IMG/VR virus record: IMGVR_UViG_3300022752_004854
Span: 1 to 28,144 of that record
Source: a virus
Strand: one strand, 5' to 3'
DNA: 28,144 bases
Shown here: positions 8,250-27,346 of the stretch, in pieces
Layout of the letters: each line of letters begins with the position of its first letter
How positions within the stretch are numbered: position 1 is the stretch's first letter
Translations under genes and position numbers: made by a program
The notes under the pieces: generated by a model
Seen by the model: the letters and a program-made list of their open reading frames with translations, nothing else
What the model was told of the DNA's origin: nothing
Databases searched by the model: none

Positions 8250-8261
8250 AGTAAAAAATGG

Positions 8262-9401: not shown

Positions 9402-9413
9402 GGAACGGTTTTT

Positions 9414-9459: not shown

Positions 9460-9512
9460 AAAGTTTATACAGATAATTACAATATCAATGATGACCGAGC
9501 AGGAGATCCACA

Positions 9513-10762: not shown

Positions 10763-10766
10763 ACAT

Positions 10767-12421: not shown

Positions 12422-12430
12422 GATTGAAAA

Positions 12431-12438
12431 TATTTATT
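12431..12438 (-). promoter_or_regulatory. Late-type promoter box AATAAATA (minus)
   Basis: Read on the minus strand, 9 nt before the ATG at 12421. Forms a divergent pair with the box at 12454. Confidence 0.5.
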
Positions 12439-12453
12439 GGCTACATTTTTGTC

Positions 12454-12461
12454 TGTAAATA
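12454..12461 (+). promoter_or_regulatory. Late-type promoter box TGTAAATA
   Basis: One mismatch from TATAAATA, 7 nt before the ATG at 12469, the same spacing as at 4043. Confidence 0.45.
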
Positions 12462-12468
12462 ACTGATA

Positions 12469-13032
12469 ATGAAAATCGCTATAACAGGACATACCGGTGG
12501 TATTGGTAAATCTTTTTCTAAATCTCTTGCTGCTCGTGGACACGAAATTATTGGTATAAGTCGCAGTGGAGGAGAGAATATTCGAAGAATTGAACACACT
12601 GCTTCCATTATAGAACCCTGTGATCTGTTTATAAACAATGCACAATCTATGTTTGCCCAAACAGAATTATTGTATGAAGTTTGGAAAAGATGGCAAGGAC
12701 AAAAAAAATATATTTGGAATATCAGCACAGCAATGACACAGTCTCCAATTAACTCTGCTCCGGATGGACAGGATGATATTGCTATGAGTTTATATCGAAT
12801 ACAGAAATTATCATTAGAGGAAGCATCTAAACAACTGAGTCATAAGAATGTTTGGCCCAGTATATCTGTCATACGTCCGGGCGGTGTGGCCACACAAAAA
12901 GAATGGAACAACGAAAACAAACAAGATGTTGATGAGTGGACCAAATCTGTCATTGATATTTTTACTGCTCATCCTAATACTCACATACCAGACATATCCG
13001 TAACATATAGAAAAACAAAACTAGAGCTGTAA
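12469..13032 (+). CDS. Short-chain dehydrogenase/reductase, 187 aa
   Basis: An NAD(P)-dependent oxidoreductase of the SDR family. The Rossmann motif TGHTGGIG (6-13) binds the cofactor, INNAQ (56-59) is the NNAG equivalent, Ser86 in NISTAM and the YRIQK motif (Y109, K113) supply the catalytic residues, and VIRPGGVAT is the post-catalytic proline segment. At 187 residues it is shorter than the usual 240-260, having lost loops and the C-terminal substrate region, but keeps every core motif. Stop and next start overlap (TAATG), coupling it to the following radical SAM gene, so both probably act on the same substrate. Confidence 0.85.
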   Translation: MKIAITGHTGGIGKSFSKSLAARGHEIIGISRSGGENIRRIEHTASIIEPCDLFINNAQSMFAQTELLYEVWKRWQGQKKYIWNISTAMTQSPINSAPDGQDDIAMSLYRIQKLSLEEASKQLSHKNVWPSISVIRPGGVATQKEWNNENKQDVDEWTKSVIDIFTAHPNTHIPDISVTYRKTKLEL

Positions 13033-14174: not shown

Positions 14175-14739
14175 AGTTGTGGAATTGTTGCCTGGCAAAT
14201 TTGTTCTTCCAATATTTAAAAATGGGTTATCCAGCATAGAAGCCTATGCCAAAGAAAAAAACATTAAATGGGTAATCAATGAACAACTTAAAAATATAGA
14301 CACAATAACTGTATTTTTACGAGAACCTGCAGAACGTTTTGTATCTGGAGTACACAGTTTTATAGAGTTTGAAAAAAGAAAAAATAAAGAGCTAGATTAT
14401 AACACAATGTTGTATTGTATAGAGAACCATTCTGTACGTAATGAACACTTCATGCCACAGTTTTTCTTTTTAAAAAATCTCACAAAATATTTTACTGGAT
14501 TGGTAGACTTGCGAGGAGTAAGTGAACTTAAAGAGTGGATACCAAATAGAAACAAACCTGCAATACCAGACATAACCAATGAGCAAAAAGAAAGAGTATC
14601 TAAAATCAAATACGAAGATTTAAAATATGACAATTTACTTTTTGAAAGACACATGTATAAGATTGCTGATACCTTTTATGTTAGTAAAAAAATAAACATA
14701 AGATCGTTGGTTGCAGAGATTGAATATGCACTGTCCTAG
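14167..14739 (+). CDS. Sulfotransferase-family-like protein, 190 aa
   Basis: Two PAPS-binding signatures of sulfotransferases are visible: the 5'-phosphosulfate loop in LPIFKNGLSSI (residues 13-23) and the 3'-phosphate motif in FLREPAERFVSG (about 50-61). Such enzymes move a sulfo group from PAPS to a sugar, lipid or protein hydroxyl. The protein is short (typical 250-300 aa). A TTG at 14155 could extend the frame, but ATG 14167 has GGAGAAG just upstream and is preferred. Overlaps the neighbouring radical SAM genes on both sides, so it is tightly coupled. It may be a divergent or reduced member; activity is inferred. Confidence 0.68.
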   Translation: MIKVVELLPGKFVLPIFKNGLSSIEAYAKEKNIKWVINEQLKNIDTITVFLREPAERFVSGVHSFIEFEKRKNKELDYNTMLYCIENHSVRNEHFMPQFFFLKNLTKYFTGLVDLRGVSELKEWIPNRNKPAIPDITNEQKERVSKIKYEDLKYDNLLFERHMYKIADTFYVSKKINIRSLVAEIEYALS

Positions 14740-15751
14740 ACTCGATCATTTCGCTAGAATAAATCACAATGGTAAGATTGGCAAATGTGGACACATGACT
14801 GGAGCAAAAGAATTTGATTCTTTTGATGAAATGCAAAATAGCTCATGGTTAAAAAACATAAAAGAAAAAATGCAAGATCAACAGTGGCCTGCTGAATGTG
14901 TGCGTTGCCGAATGACTGAAGAGTCTACTAATACCAGCATACGTTTGGATATGATAGAGAGAGATAGAATATTAAGTGCGATTAAAAAAGATTATCTAAT
15001 AGTTGGGGGAGTATTGGATAATATTTGTAACAGTGCTTGTCAAACTTGCCACAGCGGGCTTAGTACCAAGATAGGTAGCCTGTCTTCTAAAGATTATGAG
15101 AAGGTCAACAACTATGAAACATTTTTTACTTTTCCCCAAGATAGAATTTGTGAAGTAGATGTCAACGGAGGAGAACCTACTGCCAGTCCTAACTATAAAA
15201 AATTATTAAAGAATCTACCAAAGTCTGTAAAAATTGTAAGAATCAATACCAACGGTTCAAAAGTTATTGCAGAGTTAGAAGAGTTACTATCTCAAGGCAT
15301 ACGAGTAATTGTTACTTTAAGTTTTGATGGTGTGGGTAATGTGCATAACTATGTGAGATGGCCTGTGCTTTGGGAAAACTTTAATAGTAATGTAAAAAAA
15401 TATATTACACTAAGAGAAACATATTCCAATTTAAGATTAAACTTTTGGACCACTGTAAGCTCTTTGAATGTAGGAGATTTAAAAAATATTATCGATTACG
15501 CAACACAACAACAAATAGATCATGCATATGGTTTTTGTATTAGACCCGATGTGTTGGACATCAGACACGAGAACAAATTAACCGTAGCTGCTAAAGAATC
15601 TTTATCCAAAATAGATAACGAGTTATTAAATTCTATTGCAAATAAATGCGGTTCTTTTAAAAAGAACAATGATACAGAATTAAAAAAATTTATTTCTTCT
15701 CAAGACGCTTTAAGAAATATTGATTATAAAATTTATTTTAACGAAGTTTAG
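14726..15751 (+). CDS. N-terminal-twitch radical SAM protein, 341 aa
   Basis: Radical SAM motif C101-C105-C108 (ICNSACQTC), followed by VNGGEPTASP (GGE motif). The N-terminal auxiliary Fe-S domain has C3 (CPRLDHFARI), C21 (NGKIGKC), C58 and C61 (ECVRC), the same layout as the proteins at 13032 and 25415. The ATG at 14726 lies inside the previous gene (14-bp overlap) after a GAG-containing purine stretch; a TTG at 14711 is less likely. Its 3' end overlaps by 14 bp the convergent SGNH-hydrolase gene. Similarity in layout suggests a paralogous set acting on related substrates. Confidence 0.87.
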   Translation: MHCPRLDHFARINHNGKIGKCGHMTGAKEFDSFDEMQNSSWLKNIKEKMQDQQWPAECVRCRMTEESTNTSIRLDMIERDRILSAIKKDYLIVGGVLDNICNSACQTCHSGLSTKIGSLSSKDYEKVNNYETFFTFPQDRICEVDVNGGEPTASPNYKKLLKNLPKSVKIVRINTNGSKVIAELEELLSQGIRVIVTLSFDGVGNVHNYVRWPVLWENFNSNVKKYITLRETYSNLRLNFWTTVSSLNVGDLKNIIDYATQQQIDHAYGFCIRPDVLDIRHENKLTVAAKESLSKIDNELLNSIANKCGSFKKNNDTELKKFISSQDALRNIDYKIYFNEV

Positions 15752-16445
15752 TATTAAATCTCTGTAGGAATAATCTAGCAAATACTTCATGATGTTCTTT
15801 GCCATAGTGTATGCCATCTTTGGCAAGACTAGGTTCGCTGTGTAATTCTCTTTTCTTGTGTTTATCCCACTCAGGCCAACAGTTGCTTATGGTATAATCT
15901 TTTAAGATTGATAAAGTGTTTTCCATGTATATGTCATATGCTTCTTGTGCAAAACAATGAAATGTTTTGGCTCCAACTTTTTCTGCAAATTTTTCTAAAA
16001 AGAATACATTTTTTAAAAAGTTATTTTGATCTGTGTGGTTGTTCTCTGTTTTTAATGATTCACTATTGCTGGTTAAACTTTGAGGGAATTGATCTAGTCT
16101 TTCTCTTCTACTCCATGCTGGCCAACAAGCAACAATTATTTTAGGAAATATTACTTTTTCTGTGCCATATAATATTCTAATCATTTGATCAGCACTAGCA
16201 CCCGGGCGTGATAGATTCCACCATCTCAATATTTTATTTGATTTTTTTGCTACTTGACTTATCCATATTTCTTCTTGTTCAAGTCCTTCTCCAAATGTGT
16301 GTGAGCAACCAAGCACTACCACGTTCTTTCCACCATCAGGCAGTGGACGAAATTCTGGACAACGATATCCATACGAGTTGGTTTTATATCCATTTACAGG
16401 ATTAAACTTAGGTAAATCGTTGTCTGCGTAATAGCCGTGTTTCAT
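15738..16445 (-). CDS. SGNH/GDSL-type hydrolase-like protein, 235 aa
   Basis: SGNH hydrolases are esterases or acetyl hydrolases with a Ser-Asp-His site. Block I is VVVLGCSHTFGEGL (nucleophile S48 in GCSHTFG), and the C-terminal DGIHYG gives the Asp210-x-x-His213 pair. The segment NLSRPGASADQM around residue 80 resembles block II (the oxyanion Gly). Members of this branch often remove or add acyl groups on carbohydrates. It is convergent with the radical SAM gene and has its own upstream late-type box. Near a sulfotransferase-like gene, glycan modification is a reasonable guess. Confidence 0.75.
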   Translation of the reverse strand: MKHGYYADNDLPKFNPVNGYKTNSYGYRCPEFRPLPDGGKNVVVLGCSHTFGEGLEQEEIWISQVAKKSNKILRWWNLSRPGASADQMIRILYGTEKVIFPKIIVACWPAWSRRERLDQFPQSLTSNSESLKTENNHTDQNNFLKNVFFLEKFAEKVGAKTFHCFAQEAYDIYMENTLSILKDYTISNCWPEWDKHKKRELHSEPSLAKDGIHYGKEHHEVFARLFLQRFNTKLR

Positions 16446-16524: not shown

Positions 16525-16533
16525 TCTTTGTAT

Positions 16534-17280
16534 ATGCAAGAGCCTAAAACAAAAACATGGAAAGACTTTGATTCTCGAGAAGAATTTTTTCGTTATTTAG
16601 GTTATTATCATTATGATAAAAATCGTGATGAAACAGATTCTTATAAAATTTTAGGAAAAGTAACTCAAGATTTTAGCAAAGAAGTTATATGGTTAAAAGA
16701 AAATATAGAAACTATTAAAAAAAACTGGAATGATCAAAGTCCTGCACAAGTTGCTAAGAGTGTTAAAGAACTAGGACCAAAAGCACAAGCAGTAATGGCA
16801 GCACAATCTAATGATAAAAAACTTGCTGGATATAAAGATAATCAACCCATGTATAGAGTGAATAATGCTGATCCTAACAGTGTTTTTTATAAAGTTGCAG
16901 AAAAATTAGGACTTGAATATCCGCTTGCTCGTTGGCATATACAATTTCCTGGCGAAATGACTTTTTGGCACGTAGATATTTTTAATCCTGCTCATAAATT
17001 TTTACCTCCAATTGCACACAATCTTCCTGATGAAAAAATTGGTCACGATAATAATATACGTCGTATAATGGTGGCTCTAGAAGATTGGGATTGGGGACAA
17101 GTTGCTATGTTTGGCAAAACTTCTTACACAGGATGGACAGCAGGAGATATTGTTTACTGGCCATATGGTATGCCGCATGCTTTAGCTAATTGTGGATTAA
17201 CTCCTAGAATGAGTATCAGTATTACAGGAATGATTACTCCTTTGTTTAAAGAAAATTTAGAAAAAGTACAGAACTATTAA
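16534..17280 (+). CDS. Putative cupin/JmjC-like Fe(II) 2-oxoglutarate oxygenase, 248 aa
   Basis: The C-terminal half (residues 130-235) reads as a double-stranded beta-helix. RWHIQFPGEMTFWHVDIF holds H146-x-D148, then come RRIMVALEDWDWGQV, a GWTAGDIVYWPYGMPHA segment with H215 as the third iron ligand, and R225 (TPRMSIS) as a likely 2-oxoglutarate contact. The N-terminal part is helical and unassigned. A TTG two codons upstream is not needed; ATG 16534 is used. Codons and base composition are clearly more AT-rich than in the genes at 9.5-12 kb, suggesting separate acquisition together with the two following genes. Confidence 0.68.
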   Translation: MQEPKTKTWKDFDSREEFFRYLGYYHYDKNRDETDSYKILGKVTQDFSKEVIWLKENIETIKKNWNDQSPAQVAKSVKELGPKAQAVMAAQSNDKKLAGYKDNQPMYRVNNADPNSVFYKVAEKLGLEYPLARWHIQFPGEMTFWHVDIFNPAHKFLPPIAHNLPDEKIGHDNNIRRIMVALEDWDWGQVAMFGKTSYTGWTAGDIVYWPYGMPHALANCGLTPRMSISITGMITPLFKENLEKVQNY

Positions 17281-17584: not shown

Positions 17585-18727
17585 ATGAATCAAAGTATTC
17601 AATGGTTTAGCCATAAACATTTTGATCAAATTTTAAAATTACATGGTCAATCTGGCAAATCTTATAACTTTAACGGATATAAAGATTTACATAATCTATA
17701 TCTAATAAATTGTGTTTTTAGTTCTGCCCCATGGGGAGATATTATTGATAGAAGCGGAAAAACAAATTATCCTTTTAAAATTCATATAAGAAACAAATGG
17801 AAAAAACCAGATTCTAAATTAAAGAATATTGATCTAGAATCTGCTTGTAACTCTAGAGTTGAGGAAATTATTAATAAATTTTCTGCTCCATATAATCTTT
17901 ATTGGAGTGGAGGTATAGATAGTACTCTTATGGTTATAAGTTTTTTAAAAAGAGTGAATTCTAAAGATATAAACGTATGTTTAACAAATAGTAGTATTGA
18001 AGAAAATATATTTTTTTATGAAAATTTTATAAAAAAAAATAATCATTGTTTTGTAGATGTACGGAATAATTTTCCAAAAGGAACTAACATATCAGCTGAG
18101 TGCGGAGATACTATTTGGGCTGCTTTAGATCATAGTTTCTTTTTTGGAGACACTAAAGAATATGTTTTTAAAAATTGGCAAGAATATTTTGAGTTAAAAA
18201 ATAAAGATTCTAATTTTTTAGAATCTGCATTTAATTTTATGAAAAATGCAGAACGTCCTATTACAACTCTTCTAGAAGCAAGATGGTGGTTTTATTTTTT
18301 GTGTAAACATCAAAGCAAAGCCACTGCTTTATTAATTCAACATCATCATTTAAATATTGATTGGGTTAGTTTTTATGAAAGCAGCGATATTGAAACATGG
18401 AGTTGGTTTAATATAGAAAATATTATTAAAAAAAATAATTGGTTAACTTATAAATTTCCAGCTAAAGAAATAATTTACAATTTTGATAAAAATTTAGATT
18501 ATTATAACAATAAAACAAAAGGCTATAGTTTAGGCTTACATAATCCTAATAATTATTTTAATTTAGACTTATTCCACCGACCTCTGTTTATTACAGAAAA
18601 TTTAGAAAAACCGATGTTATCTACAGAACCTTTTTTTTCAAAAGAGGCTTATAAACAAGAATTTTATGAAAAATACAAACATTTGTTTGTGGTGGAGGAT
18701 AGCGGGATCGAACCGCTGACCTCCTGA
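17585..18727 (+). CDS. PP-loop ATP-pyrophosphatase (asparagine-synthetase-like), C-terminus running into a tRNA gene
   Basis: The motif LYWSGGIDSTLM (about residues 104-115) is the SGGxDS PP-loop that binds ATP and adenylates a substrate carboxyl or carbonyl, as in asparagine synthetase and related amide-forming enzymes. There is no N-terminal glutaminase Cys, so any nitrogen donor would be ammonia or an amine. Downstream His/Trp-rich segments are unassigned. The last 12 codons, reading SGIEPLTS at the end, are encoded by the antisense of the tRNA-Ala gene (18690-18765), and the stop lies in its anticodon arm. The original C-terminus was therefore probably lost or replaced. Very AT-rich. Confidence 0.75.
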   Translation: MNQSIQWFSHKHFDQILKLHGQSGKSYNFNGYKDLHNLYLINCVFSSAPWGDIIDRSGKTNYPFKIHIRNKWKKPDSKLKNIDLESACNSRVEEIINKFSAPYNLYWSGGIDSTLMVISFLKRVNSKDINVCLTNSSIEENIFFYENFIKKNNHCFVDVRNNFPKGTNISAECGDTIWAALDHSFFFGDTKEYVFKNWQEYFELKNKDSNFLESAFNFMKNAERPITTLLEARWWFYFLCKHQSKATALLIQHHHLNIDWVSFYESSDIETWSWFNIENIIKKNNWLTYKFPAKEIIYNFDKNLDYYNNKTKGYSLGLHNPNNYFNLDLFHRPLFITENLEKPMLSTEPFFSKEAYKQEFYEKYKHLFVVEDSGIEPLTS

Positions 18728-18765
18728 ATGCAAATCAGGCGCTCTACCAGCTGAGCTAATCCCCC
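18690..18765 (-). tRNA. tRNA-Ala(TGC)
   Basis: A 76-nt cloverleaf: acceptor GGGGGAT with ATCCTCC including the G3-U70 pair that identifies tRNA-Ala, D arm GCTC/GAGC, anticodon arm CCTGA/TCAGG with loop TTTGCAT (anticodon TGC), variable AGGTC, T arm AGCGG/CCGCT with canonical TTCGATC loop, discriminator A and encoded CCA. Close to bacterial tRNA-Ala. Reads GCA and other GCN codons. Lies 9 nt after tRNA-Thr. Confidence 0.96.
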
Positions 18766-18774
18766 ACTTTATTC

Positions 18775-18848
18775 TGGTGCCCCCACCCTGTACTGACCAG
18801 GGATCTAATCCTTACCATGGATTTGTTATGCCATTTAACTATAGGGGC
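18775..18848 (-). tRNA. tRNA-Thr(GGT) with a non-canonical T loop
   Basis: A 74-nt cloverleaf: acceptor GCCCCTA/TGGGGGC (G1-C72 and C2-G71 as in tRNA-Thr), D arm GTTA/TAAC, anticodon arm AATCC/GGATT with loop ATGGTAA (anticodon GGT), 4-nt variable region, T stem CCCTG/CAGGG, discriminator A, encoded CCA. The T loop is GTCAGTA in place of TTCRANN, losing T54 and A58. The 5' end abuts the stop codon of the iron permease gene. Confidence 0.85.
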
Positions 18849-19442
18849 CTAAAACCCGTGCTCCAATAATTCATGGATGCCCGTATATAGAAAGTATACA
18901 GCAAGAACGGAAAATAGCCAACGGCTATAAAAGAATATTTTTCGTACTGGCAATTTTTTAATTTGGTAGTCTGCAACCTTAATGGATATTACCAAAACCA
19001 CCAAACCCACCAAAATGCCCAAAACAATCAAACTGAGATCGGGGTCTTTGACGTATATGCCTGTTAGGAACAGCAACACTTCTATGCCTTCTCTAAAGAT
19101 TATAAAGAACGCTGCTGTACCCAATGCTAATATGCTGGTTTTAGGTAGGTCTTTTACATGCTGTGCAGCACCATGACAAAACCATGCTACCCAACCCAAT
19201 AAAGCACCAGTTAATATGGCGATTAAAGCTTCAAAGCGCTCTAAATTTACGTCAGATCCCAACCAAGCTATAGTTGAAGCACCCAGCAATAGAGTGGCTA
19301 AAAAACCCACTATAATGCTGTACCATATGGCTCGTGTTTGTGCAGAATTACCACTAGTTGTAGCCAGTGCTAGGACCACAATTAACCACGTTTCGAATCC
19401 TTCTCGAAATATTACGAATGCAGAACTTAATAATGATGTCAT
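18849..19442 (-). CDS. FTR1-family iron permease, 197 aa
   Basis: An integral inner-membrane permease of the FTR1/EfeU family, which transports iron. Both hallmark REGxE motifs are present: REGFE (13-17) in the first helix and REGIE (117-121) in the fourth, where the Glu residues bind iron. About six transmembrane helices can be drawn; the family usually has seven and about 270 aa, so this is a shortened form lacking the EfeO/EfeB partners in this window. AAAAAGG lies 5 nt before the ATG, and a late-type AATAAATA box lies at 19463-19470. The stop codon touches the first base of tRNA-Thr, so the gene and both tRNAs probably share a transcript. Confidence 0.88.
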   Translation of the reverse strand: MTSLLSSAFVIFREGFETWLIVVLALATTSGNSAQTRAIWYSIIVGFLATLLLGASTIAWLGSDVNLERFEALIAILTGALLGWVAWFCHGAAQHVKDLPKTSILALGTAAFFIIFREGIEVLLFLTGIYVKDPDLSLIVLGILVGLVVLVISIKVADYQIKKLPVRKIFFYSRWLFSVLAVYFLYTGIHELLEHGF

Positions 19443-19462
19443 CTAACCTTTTTAATTTTCAA

Positions 19463-19470
19463 TATTTATT
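19463..19470 (-). promoter_or_regulatory. Late-type promoter box AATAAATA (minus)
   Basis: Read on the minus strand, 20 nt before the FTR1 ATG, with AAAAAGG in between: late-promoter geometry with a short leader and ribosome binding site. Confidence 0.5.
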
Positions 19471-19516
19471 GTATGGTATTTTCGTGGTTGCGTCAATTGG
19501 CTTTTCATAATAATAT

Positions 19517-19524
19517 ATTAAATA
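19517..19524 (+). promoter_or_regulatory. Late-type promoter box ATTAAATA
   Basis: 6 nt before the lipoprotein ATG at 19531. A weaker sigma70-like pair (TTGCGT 19488, TAATAT 19511, 17-nt spacer) overlaps. Confidence 0.35.
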
Positions 19525-19530
19525 GCATCT

Positions 19531-19677
19531 ATGAAAAATATATTAATTGCTTTATCATTATTTTTAATAATTGGTTGTGCTTCTACGACAGATCAGCCTA
19601 AAGCAGATGCTCCAAAGAACTCTTTAGAAACTCTTGGCTCAGCACTAGGACAAGCACTAAAAAATTTAAGATTCTAA
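19531..19677 (+). CDS. Small lipoprotein, 48 aa (possible outer-membrane spanin)
   Basis: A classic lipoprotein signal: MK, a hydrophobic stretch, and the lipobox LIIGC with the lipidated Cys at residue 16. The 32-residue mature part is Asp/Lys/Pro-containing, then helical (LETLGSALGQALKNL). Too small for an enzyme. Phage o-spanins of the Rz1 type are short lipoproteins, but an adjacent inner-membrane spanin is not seen, so this remains a suggestion; it could instead be an entericidin-like or superinfection-exclusion lipoprotein. Stops overlap the convergent gene by 4 bp. Confidence 0.6.
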   Translation: MKNILIALSLFLIIGCASTTDQPKADAPKNSLETLGSALGQALKNLRF

Positions 19678-19865
19678 TTTTTACTGTTCCATTTATCCAG
19701 CATGCCTTGCAATGAGCTGCCGTGTAATTCTGCAGGATCTTGCTCTACTCCGTGCTTCATGCCGTAACCAGAACTGCGATTGCTGCGATGATGTAGTTTA
19801 GAATCGTATGTGGAATTGTTATTAGGGTTTTTGTTTTTTTTGAATTTTTTTCTTTTATTAAACAT
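19674..19865 (-). CDS. Hypothetical small protein, 63 aa
   Basis: A basic, Asn/Ser/His-rich N-terminal half (NKRKKFKKNKNPNNN), probably disordered, leads to a possibly conserved C-terminal stretch (GMKHGVEQDPAELHGSSL). No family recognised. The ATG lies 1 bp after the stop of the methyltransferase gene on the same strand, preceded by GGAAAGAAA, so it is co-transcribed and probably translated. Basic tails of this kind suggest nucleic-acid or virion packaging contact, which is speculative. Confidence 0.6.
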   Translation of the reverse strand: MFNKRKKFKKNKNPNNNSTYDSKLHHRSNRSSGYGMKHGVEQDPAELHGSSLQGMLDKWNSKN

Positions 19866-19866
19866 T

Positions 19867-20520
19867 TTATTTTCTTTCCAATCCTGTCCATGTACCTAAC
19901 TGTTTAATTACATACTGAGTGCATGGGTAGTTAATTTCTGTTGTTTTTATTTTTAATTTTTCTGCATCTTTTATTATGTATTGGTCTACTTCTGATATTT
20001 GTCCTCTTGCCCATATCTCTGTCCATGCTCCTCGATACTTTGGCTTGAATCCTTGCTCATCTAAAAATCTATTTGGTTTAGTGTAATCGTTGCTATTAAA
20101 GTCATCTAAAATTATTAATGCATCATAGTTCATATGTGGCAAAATAAATCTACAATCTATTTCACAGGTGGGTATTTTATCATCTCCATCAATGAGAATC
20201 ACTCCAAGATTACTGGGTATTTCTTCTAATTTTAATTGCCAGCTTGGTTTACGAATATGTTTGACTGCATGTTTGGGCCATAACCTCCACATGCTTTGAT
20301 ACAATAGATCTTGTTCTTGAGGATCAAGTAAAGTTATCGGCGAGGTAGGTTGTGCTTCTGCAAATATAGAGGCACTGTGGCCGTTATGACAGCCAATTTC
20401 AAAATAACTCACTGGGGGTAAGTTTTTATACAAATGCCATAGGCATAGAGCACCTTCTAGATCTCTCCAGCCTTCTTTGGCTAAGGTAAAATATTTTGTT
20501 TCTGTAAAAGACTGATACAT
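19867..20520 (-). CDS. Class I SAM-dependent methyltransferase-like protein, 217 aa
   Basis: A Rossmann methyltransferase fold is indicated by motif I YFEIGCHNGHSAS (ExGxxxG that binds SAM), an acidic LLDP after the next strand, the ILIDGDD segment and LIILDDFNS, the pattern of the Methyltransf_24/cephalosporin-hydroxylase group. These act on sugars or small molecules; the target here is unknown. It has a near-consensus minus-strand promoter (20536-20563) overlapping the promoter of the divergent MIP18 gene. Followed at 1 bp by the 63-aa gene. Confidence 0.8.
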   Translation of the reverse strand: MYQSFTETKYFTLAKEGWRDLEGALCLWHLYKNLPPVSYFEIGCHNGHSASIFAEAQPTSPITLLDPQEQDLLYQSMWRLWPKHAVKHIRKPSWQLKLEEIPSNLGVILIDGDDKIPTCEIDCRFILPHMNYDALIILDDFNSNDYTKPNRFLDEQGFKPKYRGAWTEIWARGQISEVDQYIIKDAEKLKIKTTEINYPCTQYVIKQLGTWTGLERK

Positions 20521-20535
20521 TAGTAATTTAGTAAT

Positions 20536-20563
20536 ATTGTAACATAGGTTGTGACGCTGTCAA
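20536..20563 (-). promoter_or_regulatory. Sigma70-type promoter of the methyltransferase gene (minus)
   Basis: TTGACA (20563-20558) and TACAAT (20541-20536), 16-nt spacer, with a TG one base before the -10 (extended -10). Start near 20529, leaving a leader of about 9 nt. Confidence 0.7.
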
Positions 20564-20577
20564 AGTCATGTTATACT
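20549..20577 (+). promoter_or_regulatory. Sigma70-type promoter of the MIP18/SufT-like gene
   Basis: TTGTGA (20549-20554), 17-nt spacer, TATACT (20572-20577) with a TG extended -10. The ATG at 20583 is 5 nt after the -10, so the mRNA would be leaderless. Overlaps the divergent promoter. Confidence 0.65.
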
Positions 20578-20582
20578 GTAGC

Positions 20583-20951
20583 ATGAATGATATTACCAAA
20601 GATGTTAGTCAAACTCTCGCAGATGTGATTGATCATGAAGCGACTCGATTGCAATACATTCATACTATAAAAGACAAATTAAGGACTGTGTTTGATCCTG
20701 AATTGCCCATCAATATTTACGATCTAGGATTAATATATGATATCAAAGTGACAGAGCAAGTGGAATGTTACATATTACACACGCTGACATCAGCATTTTG
20801 TCCTGCAGCAGATATCATACCTGTGGATATACAGAATGCTGTGCAAAGCATACCCAACATTGCAAAATGTTCAGTACGTATTACCATGTCCCCTCAGTGG
20901 AGTCCGCAAAGTCTAGATCCAGAGATACGACAACTAATACTGGGCTGGTAG
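20583..20951 (+). CDS. MIP18/DUF59 (SufT/PaaD-like) Fe-S assembly protein, 122 aa
   Basis: Family hallmarks are clear: VFDPELPINIYDLGLIYDI (compare DPEIPxNIxDLGLVY), a central strand pair, LTSAFCPAADIIP with the conserved Cys (compare TxxxCP), and a C-terminal SPQWSPQSLDPEIRQLIL (compare PPWxxxxIsxexrxxL). Relatives help mature Fe-S proteins, as SufT in bacteria, or act in the phenylacetate oxygenase complex (PaaD). ATG 20583 is chosen over 20568, which lies in the -10 region. In this phage a role in supplying clusters to the five radical SAM enzymes is an attractive inference. Confidence 0.85.
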   Translation: MNDITKDVSQTLADVIDHEATRLQYIHTIKDKLRTVFDPELPINIYDLGLIYDIKVTEQVECYILHTLTSAFCPAADIIPVDIQNAVQSIPNIAKCSVRITMSPQWSPQSLDPEIRQLILGW

Positions 20952-20955
20952 TACC

Positions 20956-20963
20956 TATAAATA
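20956..20963 (+). promoter_or_regulatory. T4-type late promoter box, exact TATAAATA
   Basis: Exact late consensus, followed by a leader containing AAGGAG (20979-20984) and the ATG at 20991; the clearest late-promoter geometry in the window. Confidence 0.65.
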
Positions 20964-20990
20964 TTCATACAACTAAACAAGGAGAACTCC

Positions 20991-21101
20991 ATGTTAACAA
21001 TAGCGTTCATTCTAGGTTTTGCTGCAGGTTGGTATATCAACGAGAAAGTTGAAAACCTTGGCGAAAAGTTAAATCCGATTAATTGGTTCAAGAAAAAATA
21101 A
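20991..21101 (+). CDS. Micro membrane protein, 36 aa
   Basis: Begins 6 nt after a strong AAGGAG and follows an exact late-promoter box, so expression is well supported. One membrane helix (residues 2-15, LTIAFILGFAAGWY) is followed by a polar amphipathic segment and an FKKK end. Function unknown; size and topology fit small phage membrane regulators or virion-associated peptides. Followed by a strong hairpin. Confidence 0.65.
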   Translation: MLTIAFILGFAAGWYINEKVENLGEKLNPINWFKKK

Positions 21102-21113
21102 AAATCACTTTAC

Positions 21114-21139
21114 TATCGGGGGAATTATTTCTCCCGATA
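21114..21139. terminator. Hairpin between convergent micro-genes, probable bidirectional terminator
   Basis: TATCGGGGGAA pairs with TTCTCCCGATA over 11 bp (one G-T) around a TTAT loop. T-rich stretches lie a few bases away on both strands but are not immediate. Confidence 0.5.
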
Positions 21140-21149
21140 CTTCTTCAAA

Positions 21150-21260
21150 TTAAAATTTAATTTTTTTATCGATGGTCTTTTTTTGTCCTAGTTTGTATCC
21201 TAGTCCAAATGCCATGGCTACGAAAGCTGCTACTAATAATGTGTGCCAAAAGTAAAACAT
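21150..21260 (-). CDS. Micro membrane protein, 36 aa (minus)
   Basis: A single helix (residues 2-22, FYFWHTLLVAAFVAMAFGLGY) with a basic tail (KKTIDKKIKF). The ATG lies 5 nt after a CATAAATA late-type box at 21266-21273. It mirrors the 36-aa gene across the hairpin: same length, same helix-then-lysine design, opposite strand. No family recognised. Confidence 0.5.
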   Translation of the reverse strand: MFYFWHTLLVAAFVAMAFGLGYKLGQKKTIDKKIKF

Positions 21261-21265
21261 AAAAC

Positions 21266-21273
21266 TATTTATG
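21266..21273 (-). promoter_or_regulatory. Late-type promoter box CATAAATA (minus)
   Basis: One mismatch from TATAAATA, 5 nt before the ATG at 21260. Confidence 0.45.
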
Positions 21274-21282
21274 AAAAAACAA

Positions 21283-22338
21283 TTAGAATTTATAACGAAT
21301 TGAGCCTATGATTTGACTGCCGTAATCTGTGTGTGTGCCTGTGTATACGGAAGTTTTTTCTTTATCGTGCAGATACAAACCAAACTCCAATCCCTTCCTT
21401 TTGTCAGGTCTTTTATCTTGATCATCCTGTGTCATTATTTGATAAACGAGCCCATAGTAATTGCCTGTGTAACCTAGGTCGTCGTGCTCGGTTCTGTGTG
21501 CTGTGAGATAAAGATTATCATTAACACTGTAAAGTCCACCTATATCAAATCTTTTTTTACCTGACAATCCTGTGTCTTTGTCGTCCCATAATTCAATTCC
21601 CCATATGGCTGGAATGCCCCAACGATGCAGTGCTCCTCCAATAGAGAGACCTTCTTGGTGTTTGCTGGTTGTGTAGTATCCTGCTGTTGCTGGAGAATCA
21701 ATTCTCATATAAGATATATCAAACAATCCCAACACTCCCACAGTGGCAGATGAGTAATAGGTATTGGTTAGATTGTCAAATCCTAACACCACACCATATG
21801 GCATGTCTTTCTTTAAACGATAGGAATCAAATTCAAACTCGTTGTCCCATTGGAATCCGCCAATTGCCAGCACTGCTTTTTCTCCATGATCTATTCTGCT
21901 GTTGGGCTGAGTGATAATGATGGGTGCTCCAATTTTGGGAGTCTTTGCAAATCCTAATCTCTGAGCATCTGTTTCTCCCAGATACAATCTATAATAATCG
22001 TTGCCCAATCCTATCTGTTTATTAACCAGTGAGTTGTCTTTGGTATGGTCGGCATCGTAATATGAGTCGTATAGGCTCGATGCTCCAATCCAATTCACAT
22101 AAGGATTGTTTAAGGTTTGTTGTATGCCAATCTGTATTTCTGCTCGAGAATCAAAACCGTTGTCATAGGTTCTGTCATCATAGTAGGCCTCGATATTGCC
22201 GTGAATGAATAGTCCTCTAGGCAAATCAATTTTGTTAGATTCTAAGTTTTGAATTCTTTTTTCTAGGTCTGCTATTTTCTTCTCATCAGCTGAAGCCATC
22301 GCAGACAACAACAACATTACCAATATTATTTTTTTCAT
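21283..22338 (-). CDS. Second outer-membrane porin-like beta-barrel, 351 aa
   Basis: The signal peptide is MKKIILVMLLLSAMASA, with cleavage likely after ASA; the longer frame from 22392 is rejected because it would put 18 extra residues before the signal. The mature N-terminus holds a short coiled coil (EKKIADLEKRIQNLES), as in trimeric porins with periplasmic coils, then alternating aromatic-polar strands (GNIEAYYDDRTYD, AEIQIGIQQ) and a final strand SIRYKF with the C-terminal Phe used by BAM. Different from the porin at 8343. It starts 7 bp after the bilin-reductase stop, so it is the distal gene of that operon. A pore or binding barrel in the host outer membrane is the likely role. Confidence 0.78.
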   Translation of the reverse strand: MKKIILVMLLLSAMASADEKKIADLEKRIQNLESNKIDLPRGLFIHGNIEAYYDDRTYDNGFDSRAEIQIGIQQTLNNPYVNWIGASSLYDSYYDADHTKDNSLVNKQIGLGNDYYRLYLGETDAQRLGFAKTPKIGAPIIITQPNSRIDHGEKAVLAIGGFQWDNEFEFDSYRLKKDMPYGVVLGFDNLTNTYYSSATVGVLGLFDISYMRIDSPATAGYYTTSKHQEGLSIGGALHRWGIPAIWGIELWDDKDTGLSGKKRFDIGGLYSVNDNLYLTAHRTEHDDLGYTGNYYGLVYQIMTQDDQDKRPDKRKGLEFGLYLHDKEKTSVYTGTHTDYGSQIIGSIRYKF

Positions 22339-22345
22339 TAATGTA

Positions 22346-23029
22346 TTATACTTTAGGAAATAGATTATCCGCAAGGAATACTTTGACATCATCTTCTGGT
22401 AATCCCAAAGACAGCATGGCTCGAGGCACGTGTGGATTTAGTTGCTGTTGCTCACAATAATAATTCTGTCCTTGTTTTATTTCTTCCAATCGATCGTCTC
22501 CGTTGTAATTTGGTAATTGTTCTAGGTAGTATTTTAAAGTATATTCTGCCATACCACAGATCTGATCCAACTCTTTTTCTTCTTGTATATTGCCTGCTGC
22601 TATCATACCATCGCTGAATATGTTTTTGGCCCACTGGGGCAATTCTCTTTCTTTATTAGGTTTATAAGATTTGGTATTGTCGATAAACCATTGAGTCAGA
22701 GGATGACCTTTTCTTTTCAATGAAGATATATCGTGAAATGCTCCTGTTACTTTATTTTGTCCTGACACAATATCAAACCCATAGATCGGTCCACTGTTAT
22801 GCAACACAGGAAACATGCACACGTGTATGATCCATAGTTTTTTACTTTCTCTAGCATCTACCACTTCCACATGAGCTCTCCTCAAACTATCGCTTCTCCA
22901 AGTACGATTAGTCCAACCATATTTGGTATTATTAAATCTTTCCATGCTGGGTTCGTGATATTCTTCGCAATTTTGATTTAAAATATTAACAATATTATCT
23001 TTACACTGTATAAGTTTTTTCCAAATCAT
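22346..23029 (-). CDS. Ferredoxin-dependent bilin reductase (PcyA/PcyX-like), 227 aa
   Basis: Reduces biliverdin IX-alpha to a phycobilin with electrons from ferredoxin. Landmarks of the family follow the order in Synechocystis PcyA: RRAHVEV with Glu55 (equivalent to E76), WIIHVCMFP with His69 (H88), YGFDIVSG with Asp86 (D105), then LPQWAKNIFS, and QGQNYYCEQQQLN near the C-terminus. All three PcyA proton-transfer residues are kept, whereas PebS has Asn in place of the His. PcyX, known from oceanic virus metagenomes, is a PcyA relative making phycoerythrobilin; motif reading cannot tell the product. Heads an operon with the porin at 21283; a late-like TATAAGTA lies at 23039-23046. Confidence 0.88.
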   Translation of the reverse strand: MIWKKLIQCKDNIVNILNQNCEEYHEPSMERFNNTKYGWTNRTWRSDSLRRAHVEVVDARESKKLWIIHVCMFPVLHNSGPIYGFDIVSGQNKVTGAFHDISSLKRKGHPLTQWFIDNTKSYKPNKERELPQWAKNIFSDGMIAAGNIQEEKELDQICGMAEYTLKYYLEQLPNYNGDDRLEEIKQGQNYYCEQQQLNPHVPRAMLSLGLPEDDVKVFLADNLFPKV

Positions 23030-23093
23030 GATTTAAAATACTTATATGAAAAAATTTTATGATAAAAATTCAAAAGACTAAGTATCATTAAAT

Positions 23094-23101
23094 TATAAAC
23101 A
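23094..23101 (+). promoter_or_regulatory. Late-type promoter box TATAAACA
   Basis: One mismatch from TATAAATA, 17 nt before the MFS ATG, in an 89-bp AT-rich divergent region that shows no other clear element. Confidence 0.35.
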
Positions 23102-23118
23102 AACAAATTTTATATATT

Positions 23119-24381
23119 ATGATCAAAGATAAAAATATTATCCGAGTGTCTTTAGCCAGTGGATTTGGTACTCTATTTGAGTGGTATGATTTTTTAATCT
23201 ATGCTGTGGCTACCGGTTTGGTTTTTAAACATCTATTCTTTCCTGCTACCGATCCTGCTATAGCAATATTGCTGTCCATGTTAACCTTTGGTGTGGGCTA
23301 TGTGGTTCGACCACTTGGTGGTATAATTTTTGGTTATTTTGGAGATAGAGTGGGTCGCAAATCCATGCTGATGCTCACACTCATCCTCATGGGTATCAGT
23401 ACATTTGCTATTGGTTTGTTGCCTACTTACAACGAAGTGGGTGTATGGGCACCCATCATGTTGGTTGCTCTACGTATCTTGCAAGGTTTAAGTTTTGGTG
23501 GTGAGTGGGCTGGTGGCAGTATTATGATTTTAGAGCATGCTCCTTCGAAACATCGAGGATTATTTGCCAGTCTAGTTCAAATGGGATATCCAATTGGATT
23601 TCTTTTAGCTTCTGGAGTATTTTTATTAACTATAAAATTGTCTGGAGATCAATTTTTAGAATGGGCGTGGAGAGTACCATTTTTGCTTTCTATTGTATTA
23701 GTCGTAATTGGTGTTATTATTCGATCTCGTATTGCAGAAACACCAGTTTTCCAACAACTACAAGAAAAGAAAAAACTATTACGAGTACCTTTCATGCATG
23801 TTTTTAAACATGAGAAAAAACCTTTGTTTTTAGGAATTGGTATCAAAACATCTGAGATTGCTTGGGGTTATCTGCCATCGGTGTTCTTTCCTCTTTGGGC
23901 TGTAAACAATCTTGGAGTAACTCGAGGCGATGTAATGGATTATATATTCATTGCTATGTTTATATCTATTATTGCAATACCTGCGACAGCATATCTTTCT
24001 GATCGCATAGGTAGAAGAAAAATTTTCTTATACACAGCGGCCGCAATGACCTTACTTGCTATACCTATATGGTATTCTATGCAGGCAGGACAGTTTGGTT
24101 TGCCTGTGGTTATAGGATTAGTTGCAGGAGCCATAATGTTATCTCCTCTCGCAGCTCTATTGCCTGAGTCTTTTTCAGCAGCTAGTCGCTACTCGGGTGC
24201 AAGTTTGGCTAATCAAATTGCAGCAGCTTTAGGCGGGGGTGTGGTGCCTGCTGTGGCAAGTTGGATTGCTATTTCAACAGGTAGTCTAGTAGGAGTAGGC
24301 ATATTAATGGCTGTGTTAAGTTTAATTACATTTTTATGTGCTGCTATGAGCTCAGAAACTCGAGATAAATCGTTAATATAA
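23119..24381 (+). CDS. MFS transporter, metabolite:H+ symporter (MHS) family, 420 aa
   Basis: A full-length 12-helix inner-membrane transporter. The MHS signature is plain: SGFGTLFEWYDFLIYA in helix 1, FGVGYVVRPLGG and FGYFGDRVGRK between helices 2 and 3, RILQGLSFGGEWAGG in helix 4 and LSDRIGRRK between helices 8 and 9. Relatives such as ProP, KgtP and ShiA import osmolytes, organic acids or shikimate with protons. Substrate not predictable here. All motifs are intact, so it is probably functional. It lies between the bilin reductase and heme oxygenase on the opposite strand, ending 4 bp from the heme oxygenase stop. Confidence 0.9.
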   Translation: MIKDKNIIRVSLASGFGTLFEWYDFLIYAVATGLVFKHLFFPATDPAIAILLSMLTFGVGYVVRPLGGIIFGYFGDRVGRKSMLMLTLILMGISTFAIGLLPTYNEVGVWAPIMLVALRILQGLSFGGEWAGGSIMILEHAPSKHRGLFASLVQMGYPIGFLLASGVFLLTIKLSGDQFLEWAWRVPFLLSIVLVVIGVIIRSRIAETPVFQQLQEKKKLLRVPFMHVFKHEKKPLFLGIGIKTSEIAWGYLPSVFFPLWAVNNLGVTRGDVMDYIFIAMFISIIAIPATAYLSDRIGRRKIFLYTAAAMTLLAIPIWYSMQAGQFGLPVVIGLVAGAIMLSPLAALLPESFSAASRYSGASLANQIAAALGGGVVPAVASWIAISTGSLVGVGILMAVLSLITFLCAAMSSETRDKSLI

Positions 24382-24385
24382 AAAA

Positions 24386-24955
24386 TTAATAATTTTTTTC
24401 TAAAAGATACATTTCTTTGAATAATTCTGTAGCATATTCGAAACAAATTTTTGCTTCAGCAACTACATCATCGGTATCTGTTTTCATGTAACTGTTAATT
24501 GTTTCTCTAATTACTTGTATTAATTCTTTAGTATTATCAAAATCTAAATAGGTATTAGCGCCAGGTGTTCTTGTTTTTATCATTTGCCCTCCATAGAGAT
24601 CTCCTAGATATCTTACGTATACATGAGCAAACAATTTTGCTGGTTCTCTCCTGATATTATCGATGTGTTCTACATATCTTTTTGTGCTGTTTGTTATCTC
24701 TGGTTGAGGGGTTATACGCACCCAAAGATCTTGACAATCATATGCTAATTTTTCTGCTCTTGCTATATTGGGTAGACGATCTAATAATCCTTGATACTGT
24801 GACCATTTTTCTAGAGCACCATAACAGTGTGATAGATTATAAAGAAATGTGGCATATAGTCTTGGGTGTATTTCTCCAGACATTAATATTTTTACAAACT
24901 CTTGTTGCTCGGCTCGGCGATGCTGTTCTTTAGTTGCTTCTCTTATGTCTATCAT
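24386..24955 (-). CDS. Heme oxygenase, 189 aa
   Basis: Opens the heme ring to biliverdin IX-alpha, CO and Fe(II) using ferredoxin electrons and O2. The proximal heme ligand is His12 in TKEQHRRAEQ, and the distal-helix signature YLGDLYGGQM (116-125) has the Gly residues over the heme. Length fits phage and bacterial HO1. The frame reaches 24976, but ATG 24955 overlaps the preceding stop (ATGA) and aligns with the usual N-terminus. It supplies the substrate for the bilin reductase at 22346, though the two genes lie in separate minus-strand units split by the MFS gene. Confidence 0.92.
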   Translation of the reverse strand: MIDIREATKEQHRRAEQQEFVKILMSGEIHPRLYATFLYNLSHCYGALEKWSQYQGLLDRLPNIARAEKLAYDCQDLWVRITPQPEITNSTKRYVEHIDNIRREPAKLFAHVYVRYLGDLYGGQMIKTRTPGANTYLDFDNTKELIQVIRETINSYMKTDTDDVVAEAKICFEYATELFKEMYLLEKNY

Positions 24956-25422
24956 ATATTCTTTTCGTATATCCAACCCATGCCTTGTGTTTCTGTTTCA
25001 AATATCCACTGGTATACCGGCCAAGTAAATTCTAAATACCATTCACCATTAAAACCTAAGTAGTTAGAATTAATTATAGGATCCACCGATAGATTGTTTT
25101 CTTTTGCATATTGATAGTAACCTTTTGTATATGTTGGAGAATATTTGCTCTGTAACATGAAACTGGAATAATGAAATCCTTCTACCCCGATACTTTTAAC
25201 TATTATGGCTTTGTCTTTGTCTCCTATAGTATCTCGTTCAGTTTTATTAAGAAAAAATACACTTAATCGATTGGTGTCTTTTGCTGGCAAAGCCCAATTA
25301 AATTTTTTAATCTCTCCTAGATAATCTTCGAATAAAATCGATTGATTAAATTCTATTTTAATTTTAGGTTTCTCTGCCCAAAATTTTGGTTCTAATTCTA
25401 GTGTTAGTTTAACATCACGCAT
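24952..25422 (-). CDS. Hypothetical beta-rich protein coupled to radical SAM and heme oxygenase, 156 aa
   Basis: No sure family. Alternating strands (VKLTLELEP, PKIKIEFNQSILF), a central HYSSFM segment and a W/Y-rich C-terminal part (GEWYLEFTWPVYQWIF) suggest a beta-sandwich, perhaps a carbohydrate-binding-like module. Upstream ATGs at 25461 and 25443 exist, but ATG 25422 has AAGGA about 9 nt before it and the shortest overlap with the radical SAM gene (8 bp). Its stop overlaps the heme oxygenase start. The tight coupling suggests joint expression of radical SAM, this protein and heme oxygenase. Confidence 0.65.
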   Translation of the reverse strand: MRDVKLTLELEPKFWAEKPKIKIEFNQSILFEDYLGEIKKFNWALPAKDTNRLSVFFLNKTERDTIGDKDKAIIVKSIGVEGFHYSSFMLQSKYSPTYTKGYYQYAKENNLSVDPIINSNYLGFNGEWYLEFTWPVYQWIFETETQGMGWIYEKNI

Positions 25423-26743
25423 TGGTGTATCCTTCGTACCCATATGCTGATAAAAATTCATATAGTTCTGTAGAGTAATCTTTTAGATTTATTTTTTTAA
25501 ATTTGTCCCATTGATTTAATTTTTCTGCACAAGTTTTTCTTAATTGCTCTGCATCTATAGGTGCTGGTACTTTTGCTAATCCAATAATAGATTCACATTC
25601 GTTTCTTATACTAATGTCTATTTTATGAGGATCTTTTTGATTATTAAATTCTTTATTTTTTGTTTTGGGTAATGTGTCGAGTACTGCAGATACTTCGTTT
25701 ATTATTTTTTGTTTAAGATTGTTTGGTAGTAGTTTGGCCTGCTGCCACAACGGATTAACCAATATACTATTATCTATAGGTATGCCCAACTCATAACACC
25801 ATTTAATTAAATTTGCATAAGTTGGTAGGCTTAATATGCTTGGTACAGTTCTTATGGCTAGAGACATATTATCTGGTTTTTCTTTTTTTAACTTTTTTAT
25901 ATTGGACATTACATTTTTTATTTTTCCTTTTTGTCTAATATAATCTCCAATTGGTTCTACGCTCTCTATGCTGATACCTATTTCGGTTCTTTTAAATTTT
26001 GTTAGTCTATCAAAATATTTTGTATAATCTACACTACCATTAATTGTAAAACTAAAGTTAATATTCTTTGCCATATCTTTTTCTACCAAATAGTTTAAAA
26101 GAAAATCAAATTTAGGTATGAATGCTACTTCGCCTCCTATTATGTGAATTACTCGAATAGAATCTGGGTGTCTTTCTAGGTACCCTATAAAGTTTGCCCA
26201 ACCCGCAGGATCATCTGTCCAATGATTAAAATTAGTATTTGGTTCTATCCATCCGAGCTCTTGCCATTCTTTTTGTAATGGTGTACTAAACCATGGATTA
26301 CACATTCTGCAAGCAAAATTGCAAGTGTCTCCTATATTGATATGTAGGCTGTGTACTGTGGTTTCTGTTAGTCCTTGATTATTTTCACTGTATTGAAAAC
26401 GAAATAAATTTGGACTCTGCTGATAGCTTCTTTCAAATGAATCTAAAAATACCAAAGACTTCATATTTTCTTTTCTTCGAGGACTCTCATATCCTAGCTC
26501 GTCTTTGAGCTGACAGGCTCGACACATAGAATCGGGTATCTCTCCTAGTTTTCTCAGTCTCGCTTCTCGCATACGAGGACTATTCCAATACTCTTCAATG
26601 GACATCTTCTTAATGTTCCATAATTGTCCTAAGGGAGTGCCTAGTATCTTATCGTTTTGACAACCACAAAGATCGAAACTGCCATCATGATTGATGTTTA
26701 ACTCAAACCATGGAATGTTACAGAATATTTTGCTATTAGGCAT
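25415..26743 (-). CDS. N-terminal-twitch radical SAM protein, 442 aa
   Basis: The largest of the five radical SAM proteins. Cluster motif C141-C145-C148 (TCNFACRMC); IIGGEVAFIP is the GGE motif. The N-terminal auxiliary Fe-S domain has C8 in FCNIPWFELNI, then C26 and C28 after HDGSFDL, then C74 and C77 (MCRAC), the same order as at 13032 and 14726. The C-terminal 100 residues are extra and unassigned. The ATG is 7 nt after an AATAAATA late-type box embedded in the end of clpP. First gene of a coupled trio with the 156-aa protein and heme oxygenase. Confidence 0.87.
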   Translation of the reverse strand: MPNSKIFCNIPWFELNINHDGSFDLCGCQNDKILGTPLGQLWNIKKMSIEEYWNSPRMREARLRKLGEIPDSMCRACQLKDELGYESPRRKENMKSLVFLDSFERSYQQSPNLFRFQYSENNQGLTETTVHSLHINIGDTCNFACRMCNPWFSTPLQKEWQELGWIEPNTNFNHWTDDPAGWANFIGYLERHPDSIRVIHIIGGEVAFIPKFDFLLNYLVEKDMAKNINFSFTINGSVDYTKYFDRLTKFKRTEIGISIESVEPIGDYIRQKGKIKNVMSNIKKLKKEKPDNMSLAIRTVPSILSLPTYANLIKWCYELGIPIDNSILVNPLWQQAKLLPNNLKQKIINEVSAVLDTLPKTKNKEFNNQKDPHKIDISIRNECESIIGLAKVPAPIDAEQLRKTCAEKLNQWDKFKKINLKDYSTELYEFLSAYGYEGYTNA

Positions 26744-26749
26744 TTTTGC

Positions 26750-27346
26750 CTATTTATTGTCCGCTTCTCTGCTGGTAACAACTTTGTCGGCTAATCCGTA
26801 TGCTACTGCTTGTTCTGCTGTCATGAAATTATCTCTCTCCATATCAGCTTGCAATTTTTCTAATGGCTGGCCTGTGTGTTTTTCATAAACTCGAGTTAAC
26901 TCGTCTTTCCAACGTAACAGTTCGTTAGCTTGTATTTGTACATCTGTGGCTTGACCCGATGCTCCGCCTAGTGGTTGATGTATCATGTGTCGAGCATGTG
27001 GCAGTATCAATCTCTTGCCTTTGGTGCCTGCCGATGCCAACAATGATCCCATGGAACAGGCTTGACCCATAACGATAGTTTGTACATCGCACTGAATATA
27101 TTGCATAGTATCATAGATAGCCATGCCTGCTGTGACCAATCCACCTGGTGAGTTAATGTAAATGGTTATGTCTCTTTCTGGTGCTTGTGATTCGCAGAAT
27201 AATAATTGAGCACAGATAATCGATGCCGAATGCTCTTCGATTGGGCCTTCTAACACAATGATTCTATCTTTTAACAATCGACTGAATATGTCGTAACTGC
27301 GCTCGCCTTTGGATGTTTGTTCTATTACTACTGGTATTAATGGCAT
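26750..27346 (-). CDS. clpP: ClpP-type ATP-dependent protease subunit, 198 aa
   Basis: Serine peptidase that forms two stacked heptamers and degrades proteins fed by Clp ATPases. The whole chain aligns with bacterial ClpP from [16 protein letters not shown] onward. The catalytic triad is Ser98 in GQACSMG, His123 in RHMIHQP and Asp172 in ERDNFM, all intact, and YINSPGG (oxyanion strand) is conserved. It lacks a long propeptide. A host Clp ATPase would be needed since none is seen here. Possible roles are head maturation or remodelling of host proteins. A near-perfect promoter places the transcription start only a few bases before the ATG. Confidence 0.95.
26751..26758 (-). promoter_or_regulatory. 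Late-type promoter box AATAAATA (minus), inside the clpP 3' end
   Basis: 7 nt before the radical SAM ATG at 26743; overlaps the last codons and stop of clpP. Confidence 0.5.

Follow-up and report, generated by a model that had tools for sequence, protein, structure and literature searches.

Introduction

Passages of PMC11480375 describe a phage cassette composed of heme oxygenase (HO) and the ferredoxin-dependent bilin reductase PcyX, with or without valaS, and term its purpose "still enigmatic". Representatives from oceanic phages are the cassette of pelagiphage Mosig and PcyX_EBK42635 (PDB 5owg). Phage-borne iron–sulfur (Fe-S) genes are also known in ocean phages, as stated in a portion of PMC6359870.

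A 28,144-base IMG/VR virus record (IMGVR_UViG_3300022752_004854, here G000 or the window) carries genes of both kinds beside an FTR1-family iron permease. The first-pass annotation had grouped the permease, HO, a SufT/MIP18-like Fe-S factor, two porins, five radical SAM proteins, and two Fe(II) oxygenase-like proteins into a single set that captures iron from outside and from host heme and spends it on iron enzymes. The genes were found to be real. They form two modules, HO-PcyX-porin and FTR1 with the SufT-like gene, and not one, and PcyX and a transporter gene between PcyX and HO had been overlooked. The features of the window are listed in Table 1.

To judge from its replication genes, the window comes from a relative of PA5oct and Atu_ph07. 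The replication block in the left part encodes UvsW-like and DnaB-like helicases, a primase, and a DNA polymerase fragment. The sequences nearest to the DnaB-like helicase come from jumbo phages, namely PA5oct with its relatives (50% identity) and Atu_ph07 (47%). IMG/VR contains at least 523 sequences related to this helicase, and the phage group is therefore common. The databases used were IMG/VR, INPHARED, plasmids, and short-pattern scans of GTDB genomes, in which the records are fragments; statements about publications refer to the open-access literature. The best 80 of at least 591 loci were used for the HO-anchored scan, and the best 80 of 138 for the SufT scan.

Results and Discussion

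Distribution of FTR1 and HO-PcyX

FTR1 was identified in 19 viral loci using an alignment-based scan. HO and PcyX are present in three of these records, two of which look like a single population, and FTR1 occurs without HO in the other 16. Of 14 further PcyX records, several being short, none contained FTR1. In L021 and L022 the site of HO-PcyX holds a different gene, a putative oxygenase. The order of HO-PcyX-porin and FTR1 is kept across independent contigs, and purifying selection acts on FTR1, SufT, HO, PcyX, and the porin, with dN/dS values of about 0.04–0.16 where dS is unsaturated (about 0.08–0.16 for FTR1). The gene arrangement is thus not due to chance. The position of FTR1 beside HO-PcyX is most simply explained by one event and shared ancestry within a small clade. 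The co-occurrence expected from a joint iron set failed for FTR1 with HO; it was recovered for FTR1 with SufT, as described below.

Linkage of FTR1-Like Permeases to Fe-S Genes

FTR1-like permeases adjoin SufT in three jumbo-phage lineages, and in two of these the genes lie inside a same-strand Fe-S operon. In the lineage of the window, SufT and FTR1 occur together in the window, L002, L003/L004, and L020. The other two arrangements were obtained through the SufT scan. Profile comparison with the window FTR1 family gave values of 100% and 97.4%, the latter for lineage 3.

The lineage 2 operon, FTR1-Nfu-SufT, is found in six records (L142, L147, L149, L153, L160, and L162), or five if L160 and L162, which look near-identical, are counted once. 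The order on one strand is Hsp20, ExbB-like, possible ExbD-like, ClpS, sometimes SbmA, then FTR1-Nfu-SufT and ClpP. The FTR1, Nfu, and SufT genes abut or overlap, and stop/start codon overlaps are seen in L142, the locus on which Pfam was run. NifU was detected in the six records; the 44 others searched gave no match. A virion protein of G079, the record of L142, matches PA5oct-type phages. The full L142 operon (3055-10662) encodes Hsp20, an ExbB/MotA-like channel, a possible ExbD-like partner with no Pfam match, ClpS, an SbmA/BacA-like transporter, FTR1, Nfu, SufT, an aldehyde-dehydrogenase-like protein, and ClpP. The pairing of ClpS with ClpP is unusual, as is the proton-channel-like pair adjoining an iron permease.

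In lineage 3 (L154, L176, and L181/L183, the last two being 99.99% identical), the genes for SufT, a ferredoxin with two clusters, and an FTR1-like protein share one strand, and the FTR1-like protein has REALE and RESSE or RESME motifs. After this trio, Nfu and an A-type-carrier-like protein come next in L154 and L181/L183 (2/3 loci), and in L183 Pfam scores NifU and Fe-S_biosyn. A DUF3291-like protein takes the place of Nfu/A-type carrier in L176. The L183 record (204,772 bases) carries a DnaB of the window clade. A-type carriers (PF01521) were found in four of the 14 records searched, none of them from the window clade, and PF03239 in seven of 50 long SufT records when whole records were searched.

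In 14/80 SufT loci, an open reading frame containing two RExxE motifs is no more than 4.5 kb from SufT, compared with 1/80 for HO and 1/80 for dnaB. After removal of the window clade (4, 3, and 4 loci, respectively), the values are 10/76, 0/77, and 0/76, with Fisher P values of 7e-4 and 1.4e-3 that are optimistic, since related loci are treated as independent and the SufT loci have slightly more flank. In the SufT tree, the FTR1-linked rows appear in separate places with seven label changes; the tree was built from few columns, and its starred branches force at least two changes of the FTR1 label. Together with these two limits, several observations weigh against an iron-import-to-cluster function. 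The window FTR1 scores far below the NCBIfam cut-offs (TIGR00145, 52.7 vs 303.8; EfeU equivalog NF041756, 43.9 vs 255) and has only six predicted transmembrane segments (TM). FTR1 is not universal, being present in four of the eight records with both dnaB and ClpP. The SufT and FTR1 genes of the window are on opposite strands and therefore do not form one operon, and the searched records of the window lineage yielded no NifU. L156 and L179 carry the lineage 2 operon without FTR1. The lineage 3 permeases are weak in Pfam FTR1, with 32.9 bits for L183, 24.9 bits for L176 (just under the cut-off), and no match for L154.

The linkage itself exceeds that of the HO and dnaB controls. FTR1 with SufT, joined elsewhere by Nfu, ferredoxin, and A-type carrier, may plausibly constitute an import-to-cluster line, given this gene neighborhood. 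The part of the first-pass annotation in which imported iron is spent on Fe-S enzymes is thereby supported at the level of gene neighborhood. Phage-borne Fe-S genes are shared with the ocean-phage auxiliary metabolic genes described in part of PMC6359870; the difference here is that an iron permease is joined to them. In the portions of the open-access literature available, no report of an iron permease joined to phage Fe-S genes was found, and this half of the system looks new.

The FTR1 and SufT-Like Proteins

The permease is a predicted iron importer. It resembles the FTR1/EfeU permeases in having the Pfam FTR1 domain and two RExxE motifs approximately 104 residues apart; it differs in its short length (197 residues), in the number of predicted TM, and in falling well under the equivalog cut-offs. 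REGFE at position 13 and REGIE at position 117 lie inside predicted TM1 and TM4, respectively. Both RExxE motifs are kept in 18/18 aligned phage copies, and they are also present in the 19th copy, from L035, which lies outside the alignment. An SGNH-like gene homologous to that at 15738-16445 adjoins FTR1 in 17 of the 19 loci, on the radical SAM side, which is also the dnaB side where the contig reaches it.

Among dnaB records of at least 10 kb, 5/49 contain FTR1 (80 dnaB records were found). No tblastn match to FTR1 was obtained in 50,697 phage records or 72,556 plasmids, and a PDB sequence search gave no relative. Recent acquisition from a sequenced bacterium was considered and rejected, as no relative was found in the plasmids or in two short-pattern genome scans, a kind of search that may miss distant donors.

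The SufT-like protein shares the domain and a conserved cysteine with the SufT/MIP18 (DUF59) factors and falls under the SufT and SUF_assoc equivalog cut-offs (TIGR03406, 72.3 vs 202.6; SUF_assoc, 92.3 vs 143.4). Cys78 is conserved in 5/5 sequences, and hmmsearch matched the protein to TM0487 (1uwd) with an E value of 2e-23.

INPHARED matches to the lineage 2 FTR1 and SufT were also obtained in unannotated "Listeria/Staphylococcus/Enterococcus phage" and fecal records. These look like bacterial contigs and were not used. Among the FTR1- or SufT-matching entries that seem to be bacterial yet carry phage names are OR846728, OR848130, and OR849886.

The HO-PcyX-Porin Cassette

A bilin reductase accompanies HO in all of the loci examined. 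HO is present in 15/15 PcyX-anchored loci and PcyX in 80/80 HO-anchored loci, where the two genes are at most 100 bases apart in 69 and usually overlap or abut. HO therefore points to bilin synthesis. It belongs to a bilin cassette, and the evidence points to its iron being a by-product, which may or may not be of consequence. In view of this constant association, iron release as the main function of HO was set aside, and the proposal of heme as an iron source for the phage is not supported in the form given.

The HO of the window has the proximal histidine and the GDLYGG motif, and His19 (TTG numbering) is found in 7/7 sequences. Its ATG start overlaps the upstream stop codon by four bases. 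The closest solved relative of the bilin reductase is PcyX (PDB 5owg, E value of 6e-97), followed by PcyA (2e-12). PcyX is predicted by homology to convert biliverdin to phycoerythrobilin. His69 and Asp86 of PcyX align with positions that are catalytic in PcyA. In the window and in L003/L004, HO and PcyX are separated by an opposite-strand gene for an MHS-family metabolite/H+ symporter of the major facilitator superfamily (MFS). It is absent in L002, where the HO and PcyX reading frames overlap. The best models for this symporter are metabolite/H+ symporter, shikimate, and ProP-type.

The third gene of the cassette encodes an outer-membrane protein that was assigned by fold as a general porin. 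The protein begins with what by eye is a signal peptide and ends in a C-terminal Phe, and its AF2 model (mean pLDDT of 73, pTM of 0.71) shows a short helix or coiled coil near the N terminus and a predicted barrel of approximately 16 strands. VIA Z values of 18.6–20.8 were obtained against OmpF, OmpC, DcaP, OmpU, and PorB. The rows listed in the PDB fold search are general porins and are tied, with no porin specific for heme or iron standing out among them. Matches in a viral fold library include phage proteins named porins, and phage porins as such are thus not new.

The porin is present in 20/80 HO-anchored loci. PcyX lies directly upstream in 15 of the 18 porin-anchored loci, and the contig begins inside PcyX in two loci (L121 and L129). 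The loci without an upstream PcyX are L131–L133; in L132 and L133 the porin, without HO-PcyX, is a few genes from apparent ribonucleotide reductase subunits. The porin frame at L134:1600-2623 is in two pieces, due to a frameshift or an assembly error. In T4-like contigs the HO-PcyX-porin cassette is located directly before the neck genes, and the porin is missing at this position in L006–L009 and in pelagiphage Mosig ("T4-like" and "neck" are labels taken from the Mosig annotation). To judge from the placements in these contigs and in the window, the three cassette genes move as a unit among unrelated lineages of phages and among unrelated genomic sites.

Compared with the cassette of Mosig and PcyX_EBK42635, the window has the same two enzymes in the same order, and its PcyX is 60% identical to that of Mosig. 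The window cassette differs in its location in a jumbo-phage relative, in having a porin gene that Mosig lacks, in the split by the MFS gene, and in its FTR1 neighbor. The word "porin" is absent from the main text of PMC11480375, and no paper with a porin in the HO-PcyX cassette was found in the open-access literature. A plant-type ferredoxin (Fer2) was found in 0/44 fragment records, and hence no phage-borne electron donor for PcyX, although fragments cannot show absence. In Mosig, the protein Mosig_00059 (L036:2910-3680) is annotated "putative ferrochelatase"; it has no Pfam match even at an E value of 1, and the name is doubtful. Relatives of Mosig_00059 are near HO in 22/80 HO loci.

Additional Genes of the Window

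The CxxxCxxC motif is present in each of the five radical SAM proteins, two of which score just under the Pfam cut-off (Table 1). Radical SAM genes are also found in relatives without HO. Four of the five lie in the run 9710-15751 with an SDR and a weak sulfotransferase-like protein, and the SGNH-like protein is further on. This run is conserved in several relatives, independent of the HO-PcyX cassette, and is possibly a surface or peptide modification locus.

The two Fe(II) oxygenase-like proteins of the first-pass annotation lacked coordinates, and their assignment to 10767-11327 and 16528-17280 is a guess. Both of these have conserved HxD...H motifs. For the second, phmmer found nothing useful, and a low-confidence model (pLDDT of 58) gave 2OG oxygenases in nearly all of the top 50 VIA rows (Z of 10.1–11.7). 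The second porin belongs to Porin_4, a family common in betaproteobacteria. A Methyltransf_24 gene next to SufT had been missed, and no tblastn match to it was found at the equivalent place in L002 and L003.

Table 1. Genes and RNAs of the Window Considered in This Work
Feature	Position	Strand	Evidence
second porin (Porin_4)	8304-9401	+	PF13609, E 1e-34; first ATG 8343
radical SAM protein	9710-10762	+	PF04055
putative 2-oxoglutarate (2OG)-Fe(II) oxygenase	10767-11327	+	HxD...H...R in 3/3 aligned; no Pfam match
radical SAM protein	11324-12421	-	PF04055 28.7, cut-off 29.5
radical SAM protein	13032-14174	+	PF04055
radical SAM protein	14711-15751	+	PF04055 24.6, cut-off 29.5
SGNH-like protein	15738-16445		
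putative 2OG-Fe(II) oxygenase	16528-17280	+	H148xD150...H217 in 6/6
tRNA-Ala(TGC) and tRNA-Thr(GGT)	18690-18848	-	ARAGORN; tRNA-Thr abuts FTR1 stop codon, gap 0
FTR1-family iron permease	18849-19442	-	PF03239 48.7 bits, cut-off 25.3
small basic protein	19674-19865	-	beside FTR1 in near relatives L002, L003, L020, L021, L022, L033 (tblastn)
Methyltransf_24 protein	19867-20520	-	PF13578 30 bits
SufT/MIP18-like Fe-S assembly factor	20568-20951	+	PF01883 52.3 bits, cut-off 23.5
outer-membrane general porin, predicted (third cassette gene)	21283-22338	-	fold only; no Pfam match
PcyX-type ferredoxin-dependent bilin reductase	22346-23029	-	PF05996 64.4 bits
MHS-family MFS metabolite/H+ symporter	23119-24381	+	TIGR00883 394.8 bits, under cut-off 443.45
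heme oxygenase	24386-24955	-	PF01126 89.6 bits, E 3e-25; ATG start 24955
conserved protein overlapping HO	24952-25461	-	no Pfam family above cut-off; in L021, L022, L033, relatives without HO
radical SAM/SPASM protein	25415-26743	-	PF04055, PF13186
ClpP protease (block flank marker)	26750-27346	-	PF00574

Proposed Function and Alternatives

The reading that we favor, and consider probable, is an FTR1/SufT iron-to-cluster line beside a separately assembled HO-PcyX-porin bilin cassette. The permease would be placed in the host inner membrane during infection and would bring iron into the cytoplasm. The SufT-like protein would help to load clusters into Fe-S proteins, the phage radical SAM enzymes among them. 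HO would open heme to biliverdin, which PcyX would reduce to phycoerythrobilin with electrons from host ferredoxin. The co-inherited porin may let heme, iron, or bilin in or out, and the one iron freed per heme by the HO-PcyX module may be usable by the FTR1/SufT module. Portions of PMC12753301 report that pelagiphage HTVC027P raises host afuABC iron-transporter transcripts and that another pelagiphage lowers two host iron-transporter transcripts. Iron demand in infection is therefore plausible, although not general.

An alternative is a single integrated iron module, in which HO is selected for iron from host heme and PcyX only clears biliverdin. Three distinct contigs, of which the window is one, have HO-PcyX next to FTR1 and SufT, an iron-supply role for HO-PcyX is discussed in passages of PMC11480375, and a porin could admit heme or iron. 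However, a pure iron role needs no four-electron reductase and HO never occurs without PcyX in the 80 HO-anchored loci, HO/PcyX and FTR1 are mostly apart, and the fold of the cassette porin resembles a general porin rather than a TonB-type receptor. We regard a single module as unlikely. It is more doubtful still that FTR1 and SufT are merely separate cargo genes with no functional link that ended up in a variable stretch where acquired genes are abundant. Relatives do differ from one another between ClpP and dnaB, the strands of SufT and FTR1 differ in the window, and, the phage clade being small, the three contigs amount to a single event; against this, two further lineages also place the genes side by side within Fe-S operons on one strand, and the linkage is more frequent than in both controls.

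The permease homologue might instead move another metal or alter the membrane, for example in exclusion of a second phage. Its low scores against the EfeU/Ftr1 equivalog models would fit such a role, as would the lack of any EfeO/EfeB-like partner named in general scans of the window proteins, in which no dedicated model search was made. The invariance of both RExxE motifs and the Fe-S gene neighbors in the two other lineages argue otherwise, and we consider a non-iron role very improbable.

The two-module reading may be extended, tentatively and with less than even expectation, to several jumbo-phage lineages. These would own an iron-to-cluster line in which FTR1 supplies Nfu, SufT, and A-type proteins, and these in turn the phage Fe-S enzymes, independent of host iron uptake and of Isc/Suf; HO-PcyX would be coupled to a porin that feeds it or exports the bilin. 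For the question of whether iron is actively managed by phages, a permease inside phage Fe-S operons offers a direct genetic handle, with one gene, a known motif, and a simple uptake assay, and the porin as a third cassette gene provides a new clue to the purpose of HO-PcyX.

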